A stretch of 32,453 bases of DNA from a virus, in IMG/VR virus record IMGVR_UViG_3300020408_000023, positions 1 through 32,453 of that record. One strand, 5' to 3'. A program made the position numbers and the translations under genes. The notes under the pieces were generated by a model, which was not told the origin of the DNA, did no database searches, and worked only from the letters and a program-made list of their open reading frames with translations. Below, one piece after another: positions 1,347 through 29,043 of the stretch. Each line of letters begins with the position of its first letter. The stretch's first letter is position 1.

Positions 1347-1749
1347 TATAAGACGATTTAAAAGGTTTATATTCTTTTTTAATAGGAATGTGAAGGTCAT
1401 CAATGTTCATTCCTTCAGACCACAAAGATGGACATTTCTTTGAAATCCTAAATTTTGTCACTGACATCACCTTTCCAGATGAGTCACATTTCATCTCTTT
1501 GATGATTTGACCATCAAGATTAAGCTTGTAGATGACCACCTCATCCCTGATGATTTTAACCACATCCAGACGAGCAAAGAAATGGAAATCTTCTCCCACA
1601 TGAAAATCAAGTGAGTCTTGTGGTATTTCTTGAGGTCCACCATTGTCTGGTGACAGCTCTCTGGCTTTTAGATATTTTTTAAAAAGAGGAGCATTGAATC
1701 TCCCCCTGATGTCTGTCCAGTTTTTCTGGAGCTTTTGAATTCTGTTCAT
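1339..1749 (-). CDS. Hypothetical early protein
   Basis: A 136-residue soluble protein with a basic N-terminus (MNRIQKLQKNWTDIRGRF) and no motif I can name. It sits in the early operon, 4 nt after the preceding gene's stop and overlapping the next start by 8 nt. An AAAGAG sequence immediately before the ATG may help initiation. The neighbourhood (replication initiator and helicase downstream) suggests an accessory replication or host-takeover role, but nothing in the sequence shows one. Confidence 0.6.
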   Translation of the reverse strand: MNRIQKLQKNWTDIRGRFNAPLFKKYLKARELSPDNGGPQEIPQDSLDFHVGEDFHFFARLDVVKIIRDEVVIYKLNLDGQIIKEMKCDSSGKVMSVTKFRISKKCPSLWSEGMNIDDLHIPIKKEYKPFKSSYNG

Positions 1750-1753
1750 CTCT

Positions 1754-2029
1754 TTAATTTTTATTTAATGTTTGAATAGCTGAGCCAATTGTGAGCTGGT
1801 TCACAGCTTGTCTTTTGTTATGCTCAAGGACAATTGTTTCCATGTCTGATAAAATCCATTTAGCAAGAATATTCAGCTCATCGGATTTGAAGTGAGCTGA
1901 CTTCATAGTCAGCTCATTTCTGTTGGATAGTTCAAGCTCACACCTCTTAAAGTCCACAAGCTTGTCATCAAAGTGAAGAATATTTTCTTTGATGTTTTTT
2001 AATAGTGATAATTTTAATTTTTGATTCAT
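1754..2029 (-). CDS. Hypothetical small helical protein
   Basis: A 91-residue protein predicted by eye to be mostly alpha-helical with heptad-like Leu/Ile spacing (SLLKNIKENILHFDDKL, NILAKWILSDMETIVLEH). The ATG overlaps the preceding stop as ATGA and carries a strong AGGAGG Shine-Dalgarno about 9 nt upstream, unusual for this window. It follows the KATQYFTLWSI protein directly. No function can be assigned. Confidence 0.6.
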   Translation of the reverse strand: MNQKLKLSLLKNIKENILHFDDKLVDFKRCELELSNRNELTMKSAHFKSDELNILAKWILSDMETIVLEHNKRQAVNQLTIGSAIQTLNKN

Positions 2030-2898
2030 GATTTGACCTCCTCTTTTATTGTGTAATGTGGATAAATATCAAGATAAGAACCATCACCACTCCCAGCATT
2101 AAATTCAAGGACCAGAATCTTGTTCTTGAAGCTTCTCATCCCAGCTGGGACCCAGTAATGAAAACCATTGTAAAATCTTACTTTGCATTCTCCATTATAC
2201 TTAATGAGAATGTTAAAGCCAAAAGGAATGACTTTCTCAGCTGTTTCAATCTCTTGGTCACTCATGTCTTCTCGCATCGGTGCAATGCGTACACTGAAAA
2301 AGCCTTCAGGCATATGGTCAGCTCCTTCTTTCAATCCAAAATTAGACTGAGTCTGGACTCTGATTCTTCCAGTCTTAATCCTTTCTTTAAGACAAAACCA
2401 GTCAAGGTCTTCAAGAGTTGTATAAAATCCTCTATTTTCCACCATACCAACAAAGGGAAGAATCTCAGGAATGAGCTTGACCAGTTTCTTTTGGTCTTCT
2501 GGATGTTGCTCTTTGAAATACCATCTCAGATATTTTTGTCCATCAGTGTTCTCCTGATTCTTATTCCAGATTTTACTCATCCAGTCAATCTGAATAAATT
2601 CTTTGATGTTTGCATTCCTATATTTACCATATTGAAAACAATCTTCAGGAATGACTTTAATATCACTCTTGTAACCTTCAAGGATTGTCCATGATTTACC
2701 TCTAAGAGATTCATCTGGGACCAAATCTGTGCATCCTCTAAGCTCAGCTTTCTTGATGGCTTTTTGTTTGTCTTTTGAGAGTCTTCCCATATAAGAATAA
2801 TTCGTCACCTCATAAGCTTGACCACTTGAGGTATATCTTGTTTCATTGTCTATACTCCAGAGAGTGAAATATTGTGTAGCTTTTCCGATTTTTAACAT
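2026..2898 (-). CDS. Conserved phage protein of the KATQYFTLWSI type
   Basis: A 290-residue protein starting MLKIGKATQYFTLWSIDNE, followed by SKDKQKAIKKAELRGC and PDESLRGKSW. I recognise this N-terminal arrangement from early genes of Bacteroidota phages and conjugative elements; its biochemical role is not known to me. The middle repeats the theme of short aromatic-rich strands (EDCFQYGKYRNANIKEF). The C-terminal third is beta-rich. It overlaps the preceding gene by 7 nt and the next by 4 nt, so it is firmly part of the early operon. A nucleic-acid-related role is possible but only a guess from context. Confidence 0.65.
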   Translation of the reverse strand: MLKIGKATQYFTLWSIDNETRYTSSGQAYEVTNYSYMGRLSKDKQKAIKKAELRGCTDLVPDESLRGKSWTILEGYKSDIKVIPEDCFQYGKYRNANIKEFIQIDWMSKIWNKNQENTDGQKYLRWYFKEQHPEDQKKLVKLIPEILPFVGMVENRGFYTTLEDLDWFCLKERIKTGRIRVQTQSNFGLKEGADHMPEGFFSVRIAPMREDMSDQEIETAEKVIPFGFNILIKYNGECKVRFYNGFHYWVPAGMRSFKNKILVLEFNAGSGDGSYLDIYPHYTIKEEVKS

Positions 2899-3599: not shown

Positions 3600-3758
3600 T
3601 TATTTTTTAAAGATTATAGTGTATAAAATTGATGAGGCTCCTTCCAGATGTACTGGGTCAATAAGTGACCTAAGCTTCTTTTGAAGTTTGTATCTTTTTA
3701 AAAGATAAATTTTAGGTGTTTTGTTGTATTGTTCAACAACAGATAAAATCTTATTCAT
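3600..3758 (-). CDS. Hypothetical 52-residue protein
   Basis: A small open frame starting MNKILSVVEQYNKTPKIY and ending ILYTIIFKK. It is strongly basic in the middle (LLKRYKLQKKL), with amphipathic helices likely. Its ATG follows a hairpin and TATAAACC tail identical in layout to three others in this region, and the next gene starts 4 nt after its stop. Both points support a real gene despite its length. Function unknown. Confidence 0.5.
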   Translation of the reverse strand: MNKILSVVEQYNKTPKIYLLKRYKLQKKLRSLIDPVHLEGASSILYTIIFKK

Positions 3759-3768
3759 AATTAAAAAT

Positions 3769-3814
3769 TTAAAGGTTTATACCTACAAAACCCCACAGCT
3801 CTAAAGCTGTGAGG
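3769..3814 (-). promoter_or_regulatory. Cassette hairpin, copy 1
   Basis: On the minus strand CCTCACAGCT and AGCTGTGGGG form a 10-bp stem with one G-U pair and a TTAG loop. The constant tail GTTTTGTAGGTATAAACC follows and then an A/T-rich spacer to the ATG at 3758. The stem starts 8 nt after the previous gene's stop. Stem sequence differs between copies while pairing is kept, so an RNA structure is likely. It could be a terminator, an RNA-processing site or a translation signal. Confidence 0.6.
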
Positions 3815-3822
3815 TGATGTGT

Positions 3823-4125
3823 TTAATCAAATGTAACTTGTTTAAAGAATGATTCTGACAGCAAGTGATTTGCAAAAGTCAAGTGAAGCCATCCATCATC
3901 AAGAACCATATTGAGAAGCTTGGCTCTTTGCAAGGATTTCAATTCTTTTTCAAACTGCAAAAGCTTGGCTTCTTTCAGATTCTTTCTAAGTGATGATTGT
4001 GAAAGCTCCTCTCCAGTCCAGACAGCAAGACGAGTCTTGTCATTGTTTTCTTTAAAGGTCATTTCATTGTCAAGTCCATTCTCTATGAAGGACATGAGTG
4101 CTGGTGTTAAAGTTTGTGTTTTCAT
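3823..4125 (-). CDS. Hypothetical early protein, single-gene cassette
   Basis: A 100-residue protein (MKTQTLTPALMSFIENGLDN) with a helical, lysine-rich centre (SLRKNLKEAKLLQFEKELKS) and an aromatic C-terminus (DDGWLHLTFANHLL). It may contain a helix-turn-helix-like pair of helices, but I cannot identify one with confidence. It is flanked on both sides by hairpin-TATAAACC elements and is the only gene in its cassette, as expected for a modular early gene that can be gained or lost alone. Confidence 0.6.
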   Translation of the reverse strand: MKTQTLTPALMSFIENGLDNEMTFKENNDKTRLAVWTGEELSQSSLRKNLKEAKLLQFEKELKSLQRAKLLNMVLDDGWLHLTFANHLLSESFFKQVTFD

Positions 4126-4140
4126 GTTTTCTGTTTTTTA

Positions 4141-4187
4141 AAAGGTTTATACCACACAAACCCCCAGCCAAATTCATGACTGGAGGT
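4141..4187 (-). promoter_or_regulatory. Cassette hairpin, copy 2
   Basis: Minus strand CCTCCAGTC pairs with GGCTGGGGG (9 bp, two wobble pairs, 8-nt loop). The tail GTTTGTGTGGTATAAACC and an A-rich spacer lead to the ATG at 4125. Unlike copies 1 and 3, the stem uses CCAG/CTGG in place of ACAGCT/AGCTGT, so paired bases have changed together. It begins about 29 nt after the stop of the preceding gene. Confidence 0.55.
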
Positions 4188-4215
4188 AAGGTGATAAACC
4201 AAATTTAAGGCTGTA

Positions 4216-4503
4216 TTAATGTGTAGTATTATTTAATTGTAAATCAATGTAGGCATCAATGTCAAAGTGTTCAAGCATTGATGTGTCACAAGTTCTCATT
4301 GAGTAGGTATGCTGATTGACTTTATTTACATTGATGTATTTTGAATAGTCTATCTTATACCATGTGAAAAGCTTGTCATCACTTCTATAAGGATGAGGAA
4401 GTCTGTTGATGCTCGTAATCTTTCCGATTTGCTGTGCGTATGTTGAACCATGATTGATGGTCACAATGTCACCGATTCTAAATGTTGTTTTTTCTTTTGT
4501 CAT
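4216..4503 (-). CDS. Hypothetical protein with SH3/KOW-like N-terminus
   Basis: A 95-residue protein whose first 35 residues (FRIGDIVTINHGSTYAQQIG, then KITSI) look like a small beta-barrel of the KOW/SH3 type often found in nucleic-acid or ribosome-associated proteins. The rest is Tyr- and Asn-rich with no known motif. It is the second gene of its cassette, 23 nt after the 56-codon gene. The barrel resemblance is by eye only, and function is unknown. Confidence 0.55.
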   Translation of the reverse strand: MTKEKTTFRIGDIVTINHGSTYAQQIGKITSINRLPHPYRSDDKLFTWYKIDYSKYINVNKVNQHTYSMRTCDTSMLEHFDIDAYIDLQLNNTTH

Positions 4504-4526
4504 TTTATTTTTTTTAGTTGTGAATT

Positions 4527-4697
4527 TTAGTCTTTATACTTTTTAGTAATTACTTGACATTTTTGTTTTTTCTCTATTATTCTCAAGAGTCTTAGAGTCA
4601 AAAATTTGCTGTCTTTTGGGTACACATAGCAAGTTGAGTCATTAGGGTATTGTATTTCTACAATGTCGGATTGTGTGTAGTGTGTAATTGTAAACAT
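4527..4697 (-). CDS. Hypothetical 56-residue protein
   Basis: A small open frame (MFTITHYTQSDIVEIQYPND) with a basic tail (EKKQKCQVITKKYKD). The N-terminal half reads as beta strands and the C-terminal half as a basic helix. The ATG lies directly downstream of hairpin copy 3 and its A/T spacer, as for the other cassette starts, which supports the call. Function unknown. Confidence 0.5.
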   Translation of the reverse strand: MFTITHYTQSDIVEIQYPNDSTCYVYPKDSKFLTLRLLRIIEKKQKCQVITKKYKD

Positions 4698-4710
4698 GAT
4701 ATTTATTTAT

Positions 4711-4755
4711 TAAAGGTTTATACCTAGAAAACCCCACAGCTCTGGAGCTGTGAGG
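4711..4755 (-). promoter_or_regulatory. Cassette hairpin, copy 3
   Basis: Minus strand CCTCACAGCT pairs with AGCTGTGGGG across a CCAG loop, then GTTTTCTAGGTATAAACC and a spacer to the ATG at 4697. The stem is identical to copy 1 but the loop differs. It begins 15 nt after the stop of the 4771-4977 gene. Confidence 0.6.
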
Positions 4756-4770
4756 TGATGATTTTAAAGG

Positions 4771-4977
4771 TTAGACATTGAATCCTAAAAATCTGTTTAG
4801 TCTTCTTGAGGACTCTGACATTCTCATCTTGAATTGTGATTCAAGCTCCAGAGTGACTCTGTCCCAGCTGGTCTGATAATACTTTTTAAAAAAGTATTCA
4901 AGTTCACTCAGGTCAAATGTGTGAGTCCTTATAGCTATGTTTCTAAGTTTTGGATATTTGCTTTCTAAGTATTCCAT
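4771..4977 (-). CDS. Hypothetical small protein
   Basis: A 68-residue basic protein from the ATG at 4977 (MEYLESKYPKLRNIAIRTHT). The frame extends further upstream, but that would overlap the previous gene, whereas this ATG begins 13 nt after its stop. The sequence (LEYFFKKYYQTSWDRVTLEL, then SSRRLNRFLGF) resembles a compact helical DNA-binding protein without a clear family match. Second gene of the first cassette. Confidence 0.5.
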   Translation of the reverse strand: MEYLESKYPKLRNIAIRTHTFDLSELEYFFKKYYQTSWDRVTLELESQFKMRMSESSRRLNRFLGFNV

Positions 4978-4990
4978 GATGTAATGATTT

Positions 4991-5191
4991 TTATTTTTTA
5001 AGTTGTGCGTTGTATTTTGCATTTTTCTCAGCCTCTTCAATTGAATCAAAGTGAGTATCCATTTTATTCAGGTAAACATCGCCATTCATTTCATACATCC
5101 AATGAAATTCATTTTTATCTCCGAATTGAAGTATTGAGATTGTTGCTAATTCGTTCAAAAAGTAAAATTCTAATTTCTTAACTAATTTCAT
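4991..5191 (-). CDS. Hypothetical 66-residue protein, first gene of operon A
   Basis: From ATG 5191 (MKLVKKLEFYFLNELATISI) the protein is 66 residues with alternating strands and a helical acidic/basic tail (SIEEAEKNAKYNAQLKK). The frame remains open 41 codons upstream, but that stretch contains hairpin copy 4. In the other three copies the ATG lies just after the TATAAACC tail, so 5191 is chosen. It is the first gene downstream of promoter-like element A. Function unknown. Confidence 0.5.
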   Translation of the reverse strand: MKLVKKLEFYFLNELATISILQFGDKNEFHWMYEMNGDVYLNKMDTHFDSIEEAEKNAKYNAQLKK

Positions 5192-5202
5192 AATATTTTT
5201 TT

Positions 5203-5248
5203 TTAAAGGTTTATACCACAAAAACCCCACTCCGTTTCTGAAGTGAGG
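5203..5248 (-). promoter_or_regulatory. Cassette hairpin, copy 4
   Basis: Minus strand CCTCACTTC pairs with GGAGTGGGG (9 bp, 6-nt loop AGAAAC), then GTTTTTGTGGTATAAACC and an A-tract before ATG 5191. The inner stem differs from copies 1-3 but stays paired. Here no coding gene precedes the hairpin, which argues against a simple gene-end terminator. Confidence 0.6.
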
Positions 5249-5657
5249 TAAAATGTTTTGATGGTTTTGTTTTTTGAAGATGCTCCGAGAATACATTTCC
5301 AGATGGTCTGTCATAAAGGCTCAATTCAAGCGTATGTCCTTTCAATGATTTTCCATGATGGTCATGTGGTCATATTTAAGTCATCTGTTCGTGAACGCAA
5401 TTGGTCTCATCAGAGAGGCTCCCTCAGTGTGTGAGGTCATGTCTCTGGGAGTGTTCGTCAAGCCATTATTTCAAGGTACTCATGTGCGTCATGCACACCA
5501 CGAATATAAGGACTTTAAATTAATATAAACAAGAGCATGAGTGAAATAAATTCCAAAACAGCTCTGAAACCCTTGTAAACACTGGGAAAAATTTTTTTAT
5601 TTTTTTTTACTTTGGTTAGATTCTAATCATAAATTAAAAATGTTGAGATTCTAATCA
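5249..5657. other. Long leader/intergenic region of operon A
   Basis: About 400 bp with no convincing gene, between element A and the first early cassette. It contains several short inverted repeats (CCTCA-CACAC-TGAGG and TGTGC-ATGAC-GCACA on the minus strand; the imperfect palindrome GTTCGTGAAC near 5388) and a second copy of the CTCTGnAACCCTTG box at 5562-5575. The GATTCTAATC pair is listed separately. Only mini-frames of fewer than 20 codons occur. An untranslated regulatory leader or operator region is the likeliest role. Confidence 0.4.
5619..5656. promoter_or_regulatory. Pair of GATTCTAATC operator-like sites
   Basis: GATTCTAATC occurs at 5619-5628 and again at 5647-5656, 28 bp apart. 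Each is a palindrome (GATT-nn-AATC) apart from its centre. They lie just downstream of element A, ahead of the early genes. A repressor or activator site is plausible; the phage-encoded HTH protein at 29049-29264 is one candidate ligand (inference). Confidence 0.4.
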
Positions 5658-8020: not shown

Positions 8021-8734
8021 TTATATTGATGTATTTGCAGTTAAAAAAGACAATAAATTCTCGTAGCTCATTTTTGACTCTTTATCACCATTTAAAACAA
8101 TTCTTTCTGATTCCTCTTGTGGAATTCTAATTCTACCACCATTCTGATTCTTTAACACAATCACATTCCTTTTTATTGGTTGTGTGCTAAAATTTACCTC
8201 AAACACTGAAGCTGGTCCAGTCACGTCTTGTGTTGCACTTAACATCTGTGCTGATGCTTCTAAAGATTTGACATTTGCTTCTTTGACTGGTTCTGAAATT
8301 TCAGACCCTTCTGAGTTTAGGGTCTCTTGCTCAATGTGAAAGGTTGTATTTTTTTTAGAATAGTATAGTGTTATACTTTCAGTGTGAAGTGTGTAGGATG
8401 GCTCTTTAATCTTGTCAAATGTGGTTGTTACTTCTTGTTCACCATCTTTCTGTGTGGTTTCTGTTACCTCACCTGATTCTGGTGATGGTTTAGACTCAAC
8501 AGCTTCACCTTCGCTGGTTTTTATAGCTGTTTCTGTTTCTTTAGCAGAAGTCGAAAGTTTTCCGATAATGTCTTCCACATTTGTGTTTGTATCTGGAGTT
8601 TCTAAAATAATGGCTTGGGTTGTTTGTGCCTGAATGCGTAGATAATTGTTGTCAACGTCTATCGCATTTATAGACATGACTGGATTTCTAAATGTTTTAA
8701 TAACTTCTGGGTTAATTAGTGCTGTATGAGGCAT
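8021..8734 (-). CDS. Putative virion-associated protein, Glu/Ser/Thr-rich
   Basis: A 237-residue protein between the tail-tip genes and the holin. Residues about 60-110 are low-complexity and acidic (SEGEAVESKPSPESGEVTET). The flanking parts are beta-rich (SYTLHTESITLYYS; RNVIVLKNQNGGRIRIP). No family recognised. Gene order favours a structural or adsorption-related protein, but it could equally be a lysis-region accessory. Confidence 0.55.
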   Translation of the reverse strand: MPHTALINPEVIKTFRNPVMSINAIDVDNNYLRIQAQTTQAIILETPDTNTNVEDIIGKLSTSAKETETAIKTSEGEAVESKPSPESGEVTETTQKDGEQEVTTTFDKIKEPSYTLHTESITLYYSKKNTTFHIEQETLNSEGSEISEPVKEANVKSLEASAQMLSATQDVTGPASVFEVNFSTQPIKRNVIVLKNQNGGRIRIPQEESERIVLNGDKESKMSYENLLSFLTANTSI

Positions 8735-28335: not shown

Positions 28336-28350
28336 ACAAAGTTACTCAAT
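28336..28350 (-). promoter_or_regulatory. Second TAACTTTG promoter-like site
   Basis: The minus strand has ATTGAGTAACTTTGT, identical to the site before portal. Here its TAA is also the stop codon of the 86-residue gene. It lies 17 nt upstream of the membrane protein's GTG. It fits TAnnTTTG, but the spacing of the nearest upstream TTTG (11 nt) is too short for a standard promoter. Confidence 0.3.
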
Positions 28351-28602
28351 GAATTCAAACCATATTGAATGAATCAGTCCATGAAACTTGGTTCTCTTTA
28401 TCTTGACCCCTTTTTCTTGAGCATAAAGAACAAAGTCTTTCAGGTCTTCATCAAGGCTGTGAGCTTTCCATAGGAACCCAGCTTTCTTCTCTCCATAGTC
28501 AGCACAGAATTGGACCCTCGCAATCTCCACACCATGCTGTTTCAGAAGCATCTTGATGGCTTTCATCTTTGGGAATCCTTCTCTGTGATAGTTAGCTCTC
28601 AT
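28342..28602 (-). CDS. Hypothetical early protein
   Basis: An 86-residue basic alpha/beta protein (MRANYHREGFPKMKAIKMLL, then VEIARVQFCADYGEKK) overlapping the previous gene as ATGA. Ends in an aromatic strand (HGLIHSIWFEFIE). No recognised family. It lies after the intrinsic terminator in the tail end of the early region. Confidence 0.55.
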   Translation of the reverse strand: MRANYHREGFPKMKAIKMLLKQHGVEIARVQFCADYGEKKAGFLWKAHSLDEDLKDFVLYAQEKGVKIKRTKFHGLIHSIWFEFIE

Positions 28603-28997
28603 AGTCTGTGGAAAACTTTTGGAAACTTTAATTTATCCAATATCTGAACAGATACATTTTCACTATGTGAATACACCTCATCAAGACTTGAATCTTTGTC
28701 ACTCATCAGATATGACAGCTTGAAAGAGGTATTTTGAATAATTAGGACAGCCAGAGTGATTTCAAGGTCCATGAGCTTAGTGGTGTTTAAGTACATGAAA
28801 GGTCTTCTCTCAAGGCTTTTTTCCTTATCCTCTGGGTGATGGTCCACCATAGAACAGAAACCCTCTTGAAACTGATTCATGAAAGTGGCTTCAGCATAAG
28901 TCACCCCACAGAGAGAATTGACTCCAAACCATTTGAAAATGTCTCTCACATCATCCGAGATGATGAGGTCAAAGTCTGGAAAAATTATCTGTCTCAT
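28599..28997 (-). CDS. Hypothetical early protein
   Basis: A 132-residue protein from ATG 28997 (MRQIIFPDFDLIISDDVRDI); an upstream in-frame start would place the coding sequence across the terminator and is rejected. It contains several Cys/Met residues (GVNSLCGVTYAEATFMNQF) but no ordered metal site. A 12-bp perfect palindrome CTTAAATTTAAG lies just upstream of the ATG and may be an operator. Function unknown. Confidence 0.55.
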   Translation of the reverse strand: MRQIIFPDFDLIISDDVRDIFKWFGVNSLCGVTYAEATFMNQFQEGFCSMVDHHPEDKEKSLERRPFMYLNTTKLMDLEITLAVLIIQNTSFKLSYLMSDKDSSLDEVYSHSENVSVQILDKLKFPKVFHRL

Positions 28998-29011
28998 ACT
29001 TAAATTTAAGC

Positions 29012-29043
29012 AAAAAAAAAGCTCCCTCATTTCTGAAGGAGCT
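29012..29043 (-). terminator. Intrinsic (rho-independent) terminator
   Basis: On the minus strand AGCTCCTTCA and TGAGGGAGCT form a 10-bp stem (one G-U) closed by a GAAA tetraloop and followed by nine T. It begins 5 nt after the stop of the HTH gene. It is the only textbook intrinsic terminator I find in the window and should reduce transcription into the three genes downstream. Confidence 0.9.

Follow-up and report, generated by a model that had tools for sequence, protein, structure and literature searches.

The repeated hairpins found among small genes of an uncultured virus are best read, from comparison of the copies, as a phage-specific, cis-acting RNA element that lies in the leaders of these genes or between cistrons. 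The comparison supports an arrangement in which the upstream stop codon is followed, in this order, by an interrupted stem-loop, a conserved UAnAAAC and a canonical Bacteroidota initiation region. It is almost certain that the copies make up a real RNA family, and the element probably acts post-transcriptionally on the gene downstream of it (a probability of about 0.65).

The window, meaning the whole stretch of DNA analysed, is a 32.4 kb virus record (IMGVR_UViG_3300020408_000023, positions 1 to 32,453). Its nearest IMG/VR relative, the contig 3300025120_000012 (labels L001, L052 and L133; called the sister phage below), shows ~88-96% DNA identity over the aligned stretches. The virus probably infects a member of the Flavobacteriia, because a gene for a 290-aa protein matches Tenacibaculum phages and because initiation regions and promoter-like boxes of the Bacteroidota type are present. 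This protein (2026-2898, minus strand) has no known function, and among cultured records its relatives were found only in Tenacibaculum phages. Promoter-like boxes of the Bacteroidota type were seen on the minus strand at 28344, 25496 and 31305, two of them with GAGTAACTTTG and one with TATATTTG.

The small genes around the hairpins are all encoded on the minus strand and are of unknown function: gene A (4991..5191, 66 aa), gene B (4771..4977, 68 aa), gene C (4527..4697, 56 aa), gene D (4216..4503, 95 aa), gene E (3823..4125, 100 aa) and gene F (3600..3758, 52 aa). The genes around the hairpins gave no Pfam match above the cut-off, and those tested against PHROG gave no convincing match; with genes D and E as queries, the sister phage was the sole relative reached. 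Judging from their position adjoining the replication genes, the small genes associated with the hairpins are probably early.

Four minus-strand hairpins had been pointed out between 3769 and 5248 by a sequence-only reading of the window, and they were present there far beyond chance. Copy 1 (5214..5265), which precedes gene A, has a first helix, P1, at 5249-5224 (ACCTCACTTC/GGAGTGGGGT), and the 5' arm of a second helix, P2, at ~5256-5265, which pairs with UUUUUGUGGU in the tail; the tail GGTATAAACCTTT lies at 5205..5217, before the ATG at 5191. The covariance model R2 matched this copy at 5254-5200 with an E value of ~1e-13, copy 1 itself being in the training set. The P1 hairpin of copy 2 (ACCTCACAGCT/AGCTGTGGGGT) was located at 4731..4756, with the tail at 4712..4724 before the ATG of gene C at 4697, and that of copy 3 (ACCTCCAGTCA/TGGCTGGGGGT) at 4160..4187, with the tail at 4141..4153 before the ATG of gene E at 4125; upstream of copy 3, GGTTTATCAC is able to pair with the tail as an extended P2. 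Copy 4 has the same P1 arms as copy 2, at 3790..3815, and its tail, at 3771..3783, precedes the ATG of gene F at 3758. All four features are on the minus strand, and GGTATAAACCTTT occurs in the window exactly at these four places. When 2 mismatches were allowed, 5 matches were obtained versus 0.81 expected, a number reached in 0 of 100 shuffles.

Some details of the sequence-only reading had to be adjusted. The stems, described as 9-10 bp, are 10-11 bp long when the A-U closing pair is counted, and the tail does recur, although the string given for it, GTTTnTnnGG, is inexact, as the copies read GTTTTTGTGG, GTTTTCTAGG, GTTTGTGTGG and GTTTTGTAGG. Variation of the stem bases with pairing kept holds in the broad set of copies described below, whereas the window alone offers three stem sequences only, because the stems of copies 2 and 4 are identical. 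Each copy had been said to precede one or two small genes, which fails for the last one, as a longer run of genes follows it. The hairpin-less TATAAACCTTTT noticed before the gene starting at 1346 is real. It corresponds to the tail-like AATATAAACCTTT (1361..1373, minus strand), with similar sequence kept in L133, L134, L055 and L056, and in the window it overlaps the coding end of the upstream ORF; in the syntenic relative L055, TATACACCTTTAAAACG is kept at that place, past the stop codon of that gene. L055 also carries, at 8485-8508, a single intercistronic hairpin of another kind (AAAGGGAGGA..TCCTCCCTTT), which is immediately followed by an ATG. Tail letters may be common to copies of one genome, such as TAGG in window copies 2 and 4, or GTCAG in the sister-phage copies at 2891-2945 and 4002-4056, and from their sequences the copies within one genome look as if they were converting each other.

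A relaxed and then a sharper pattern search showed that dozens of other IMG/VR contigs carry the element as well. Among 50 distinct pattern matches, 31 had 9 or more consecutive pairs and the remaining ones had at most 6, which makes two well separated groups. Real hairpins should give the first group only; a few members of the second (e.g. L339, L352 and L498) were shifted stems of the same kind. The R2 model was built from 15 copies, and its alignment A3 contained 69 matches in 50 distinct rows. Searches of whole records showed one to four copies per IMG/VR record, which lie on a single strand and mostly span no more than a few kilobases, and the common anatomy consists of a P1 of 9-11 bp (usually ACCUC...GGGGU), about four U, (N)GGUAnAAAC, an A-rich leader and the AUG. 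Both the extent of the family, far past this phage, and the helix P2 had been missed by the sequence-only reading. The uncultured viruses that bear the element probably infect marine Bacteroidota. By eye, GroEL- and GroES-like proteins were seen to be encoded near the element cluster of the phage contig L442 (5738-7622), and a cysteine-rich repeat protein (CSYCSDCSDC...) is encoded on L488 (7750-8367, minus strand), a phage contig on which the element occurs four times.

The family is absent from Rfam 15, where neither the window nor the L402 copy gave a credible match, even at permissive thresholds, and where the element exceeded the gathering threshold of no family. No genuine copy was found in 395 Bacteroidota genomes by covariance model and pattern search, the filters of the model being strict and few candidates being scored per genome. 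The sole model match in these genomes (L441), which resembles a terminator hairpin and lacks the GTA tail, and the sole pattern match (L504), which has no stem, were both judged to be due to chance; the pattern matches on genome contigs L193-L204 were about as numerous as expected by chance, and none had a convincing element. No convincing copy was found in cultured phages by blastn, nor by the covariance model in 15 phage records, most of them from Bacteroidota phages. A 77.8% blastn match in Flavobacterium phages was also attributed to chance, as it extends over two neighbouring genes and depends on the A-rich tail. The Cellulophaga phages phi10:1 and phi19:1 (L519 and L520) have an intercistronic hairpin, ACCCCTA..TTAGGGGT, followed by a T-run and then TATAAACATG, an arrangement similar in layout to the element and with a weak covariance model score. 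L381, in which a Shine-Dalgarno-like sequence is present, is probably outside the family.

The covariation implied by the first description of the stems was borne out in the broad set, where P1 covaries strongly: 98.4% of cells were paired, the score was 0.596 compared to 0.169 for shuffled alignments (0 of 500 reaching it) and no more than 0.095 when slid, and 5 of the 9 pairs had changes on both sides. The letters CCTC, GGGG, TTTT and GGTA..AAC were forced by the search patterns on most copies from outside the window and their constancy cannot serve as independent support for conservation; no such constraint acted on the start codon, the A-box, the inner stem or P2.

P2, newly recognised here, pairs the bases just 5' of P1 with the NNGGU in the tail, a U-rich internal loop lying in between, and P1 and P2 together constitute an interrupted long hairpin of ~13-19 bp in total. 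When the upstream segments were swapped among 40 copies, the mean fold energy was -20.64 for the real arrangement versus -19.5 (sd 0.26) for the permuted ones (z -4.34, 0 of 1000), a strength that is somewhat overstated, since related phages are among the 40 after thinning of redundant copies, and P2 had been noticed in the very copies then used for its test. Segments taken as controls at 21-36, 41-56 and 60-75 nt upstream had no effect, and a cruder score of the helix alone was equalled in 21 of 1000 permutations. The pairing differs between phages, with CCUAG/CUAGG in L442 versus UCUAA/UUAGG in L496, and UUGGU/GCCAG in L488; in the window, P2 is weak in copy 4. Two further pairings were rejected: a mini-hairpin GGU/ACC inside the tail, which did not covary, and a complementarity of GGUGGU to the 3' end of the 16S rRNA, which was dropped by hand because the window tails do not keep it.

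The association of the copies with gene starts also held: of 51 distinct copies, 47 have the start of an ORF no more than 60 nt away, compared to 24% of random points. A stop codon on the same strand was found 7-30 nt upstream of most copies, and the distance from UAnAAAC to the AUG is typically ~18-25 nt. Translation initiation in Bacteroidota is not driven by Shine-Dalgarno sequences. A sequence of this type was detected in only one of the 47 copies with a downstream ORF, and the leaders were rich in A at -3 (39/47), -6 (30/47), -12 (39/47) and -13 (37/47), the positions at which A is reported to be a positive determinant of initiation in Flavobacterium johnsoniae (PMC6847099).

The Bacteroidota -7 box (TAnnTTTG) was found within 80 nt upstream of 8 of the 51 copies versus 2.2 expected, including L463, L487 and L447, in which the element is a promoter-proximal leader; none of the 51 copies had this box inside the hairpin or between the hairpin and the AUG. 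Copies 3 and 4 of the window are also among the eight: -7-like boxes on the minus strand are located 12 nt upstream of copy 3 (TAAATTTG, 4200..4207) and 12 nt upstream of copy 4 (TACATTTG, 3828..3835, overlapping the end of gene E). A candidate main early promoter with the -7 box TATATTCG (5501..5508, minus strand) was identified by eye from sequence comparison, and the syntenic place in L055 has TATATTTG and a similar AT-rich stretch upstream. Between this candidate promoter and copy 1 there is an apparently noncoding leader of 250 nt (5251-5500, minus strand), which is kept in L133, is absent from L055 and showed no unusual folding (z -0.45).

The early intercistronic RNase III sites of phage T7 are interrupted stem-loops placed between early genes, just before the next start. 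From sequence alone, the element resembles these sites (R0.3 to R1.3; for the R1.1 substrate see PMC4858673) in being an interrupted double helix between genes, and differs from them in its shorter helices and in the conserved sequence of its lower stem and tail. In the reading that we favour, the element would work at the mRNA level, where it would set each cassette apart from the message upstream and give it a 5' boundary that is structured and defined, together with a ribosome landing site that is kept open; the message of each cassette would then be translated and would decay independently. The likeliest route would be a cut in the internal loop by the host RNase III or a similar endonuclease, as at the T7 early sites, and alternatively the uncut stem-loop would shield the leader. 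This mechanism of processing and insulation we put at even odds. RNase III would leave the constant CC.C/G.GG, UUUU and GUAnAAAC unexplained, the 13-19 bp of P1 plus P2 are short for a classical RNase III site, and the extended P2 of copy 3 would cover AUAAACC.

The main alternative to endonucleolytic processing is protein binding at UAnAAAC, with a specific host or phage protein switching the translation of early genes or the elongation of transcripts, as at a translational operator or a nut/put-type site. GUAnAAAC, the U4 and the letters of the lower stem are near-invariant in phages with unrelated flanking genes, a constancy that suggests a specific binder, though part of it was imposed by the search patterns on most non-window copies. 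There is neither a candidate protein nor a known trans factor, and a host factor would be left without an obvious natural target, because the 395 Bacteroidota genomes gave no genuine copy; we regard such a binding site as unlikely. A dedicated RNA signal of Bacteroidota phages can be proposed tentatively, in which a specific factor would read UAnAAAC together with the interrupted stem and single out phage messages to be processed or preferentially translated in non-Shine-Dalgarno hosts, the signal doubling as a cassette joint.

Like an intrinsic terminator, the element has a GC-rich hairpin and then U residues shortly past a stop codon, and it might end a fraction of the transcripts as a terminator or attenuator, grading or regulating the downstream cassettes. 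A precedent is offered by the promoter early stem-loops (PeSLs) of T4-like phages (Arbiol 2010; Comeau 2014; via PMC4503421), which pair a stem-loop with an early promoter. As described in that source, PeSLs share with the element that they are small intergenic stem-loop modules between small genes, repeated in the genome; they are tied to cassette shuffling, a link that the element may have as well. In contrast to PeSLs so described, the element does not include the early promoter, its -7 boxes being upstream (8/51) and never inside or after the hairpin (0/51), and it has a tail with the conserved UAnAAAC, the helix P2 and an initiation region of the Bacteroidota type. A rule of at least 5 T within 8 bases after the stem was passed by one of the four window copies and failed by the other three. 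Unlike that of intrinsic terminators, the run is of 4 in nearly all copies, then broken, and is followed by the conserved tail and the immediate initiation region of the next gene. A terminator-like hairpin with 8 T is present elsewhere in the window (AGCTCCTTCAGAAATGAGGGAGCT, 29020-29043, minus strand), where it overlaps the listed start of the ORF 28599-29030, a start that may be wrong. Termination would also leave the downstream genes without a recognisable promoter, as the stretch from hairpin to AUG holds no -7 box, it would make promoter-proximal copies stop the very transcript that they belong to, and it would not account for UAnAAAC and P2; this explanation therefore appears improbable. 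Of the repeated RNA device proposed by the sequence-only reading, a covarying element at gene starts was confirmed and the terminator option was weakened.

Since every cassette begins with the same element, the favoured leader element would also provide a short homology, and genes may be exchanged with the junction placed at it. Compared to the window, the sister phage has an unrelated gene in place of gene A after copy 1, the alignment stopping at the start codon, has an extra gene between gene D and copy 3, and lacks gene G, which is not adjacent to any hairpin. In other phages, L456, L464 and L481 have upstream sequence in common with L500 and differ downstream, whereas downstream but not upstream sequence is common to L486 and L493, and to L442 and the group L458/L470/L496; L402 and L347 have the element alone in common. 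This switching of homology at the element in several phage pairs supports the cassette exchange suggested earlier, short of proof. It would also suit a DNA-level linker kept only for promoting recombination between cassettes, as would the tail letters that window copies 2 and 4 share with one another and not with the copies at the corresponding positions of L133, a pattern expected from gene conversion. Recombination, however, needs neither compensatory changes in P1 and P2, nor strand bias, nor siting before initiation signals, which makes this explanation very improbable.

To our knowledge, little is known about how Bacteroidota phages control small genes in polycistronic messages. A compact, repeated and covarying element beside A-rich initiation signals would be a directly testable handle on such control. 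It may also serve as a landmark for exchangeable gene cassettes in uncultured phages, and could be tried as a part for expressing genes in Bacteroidota.
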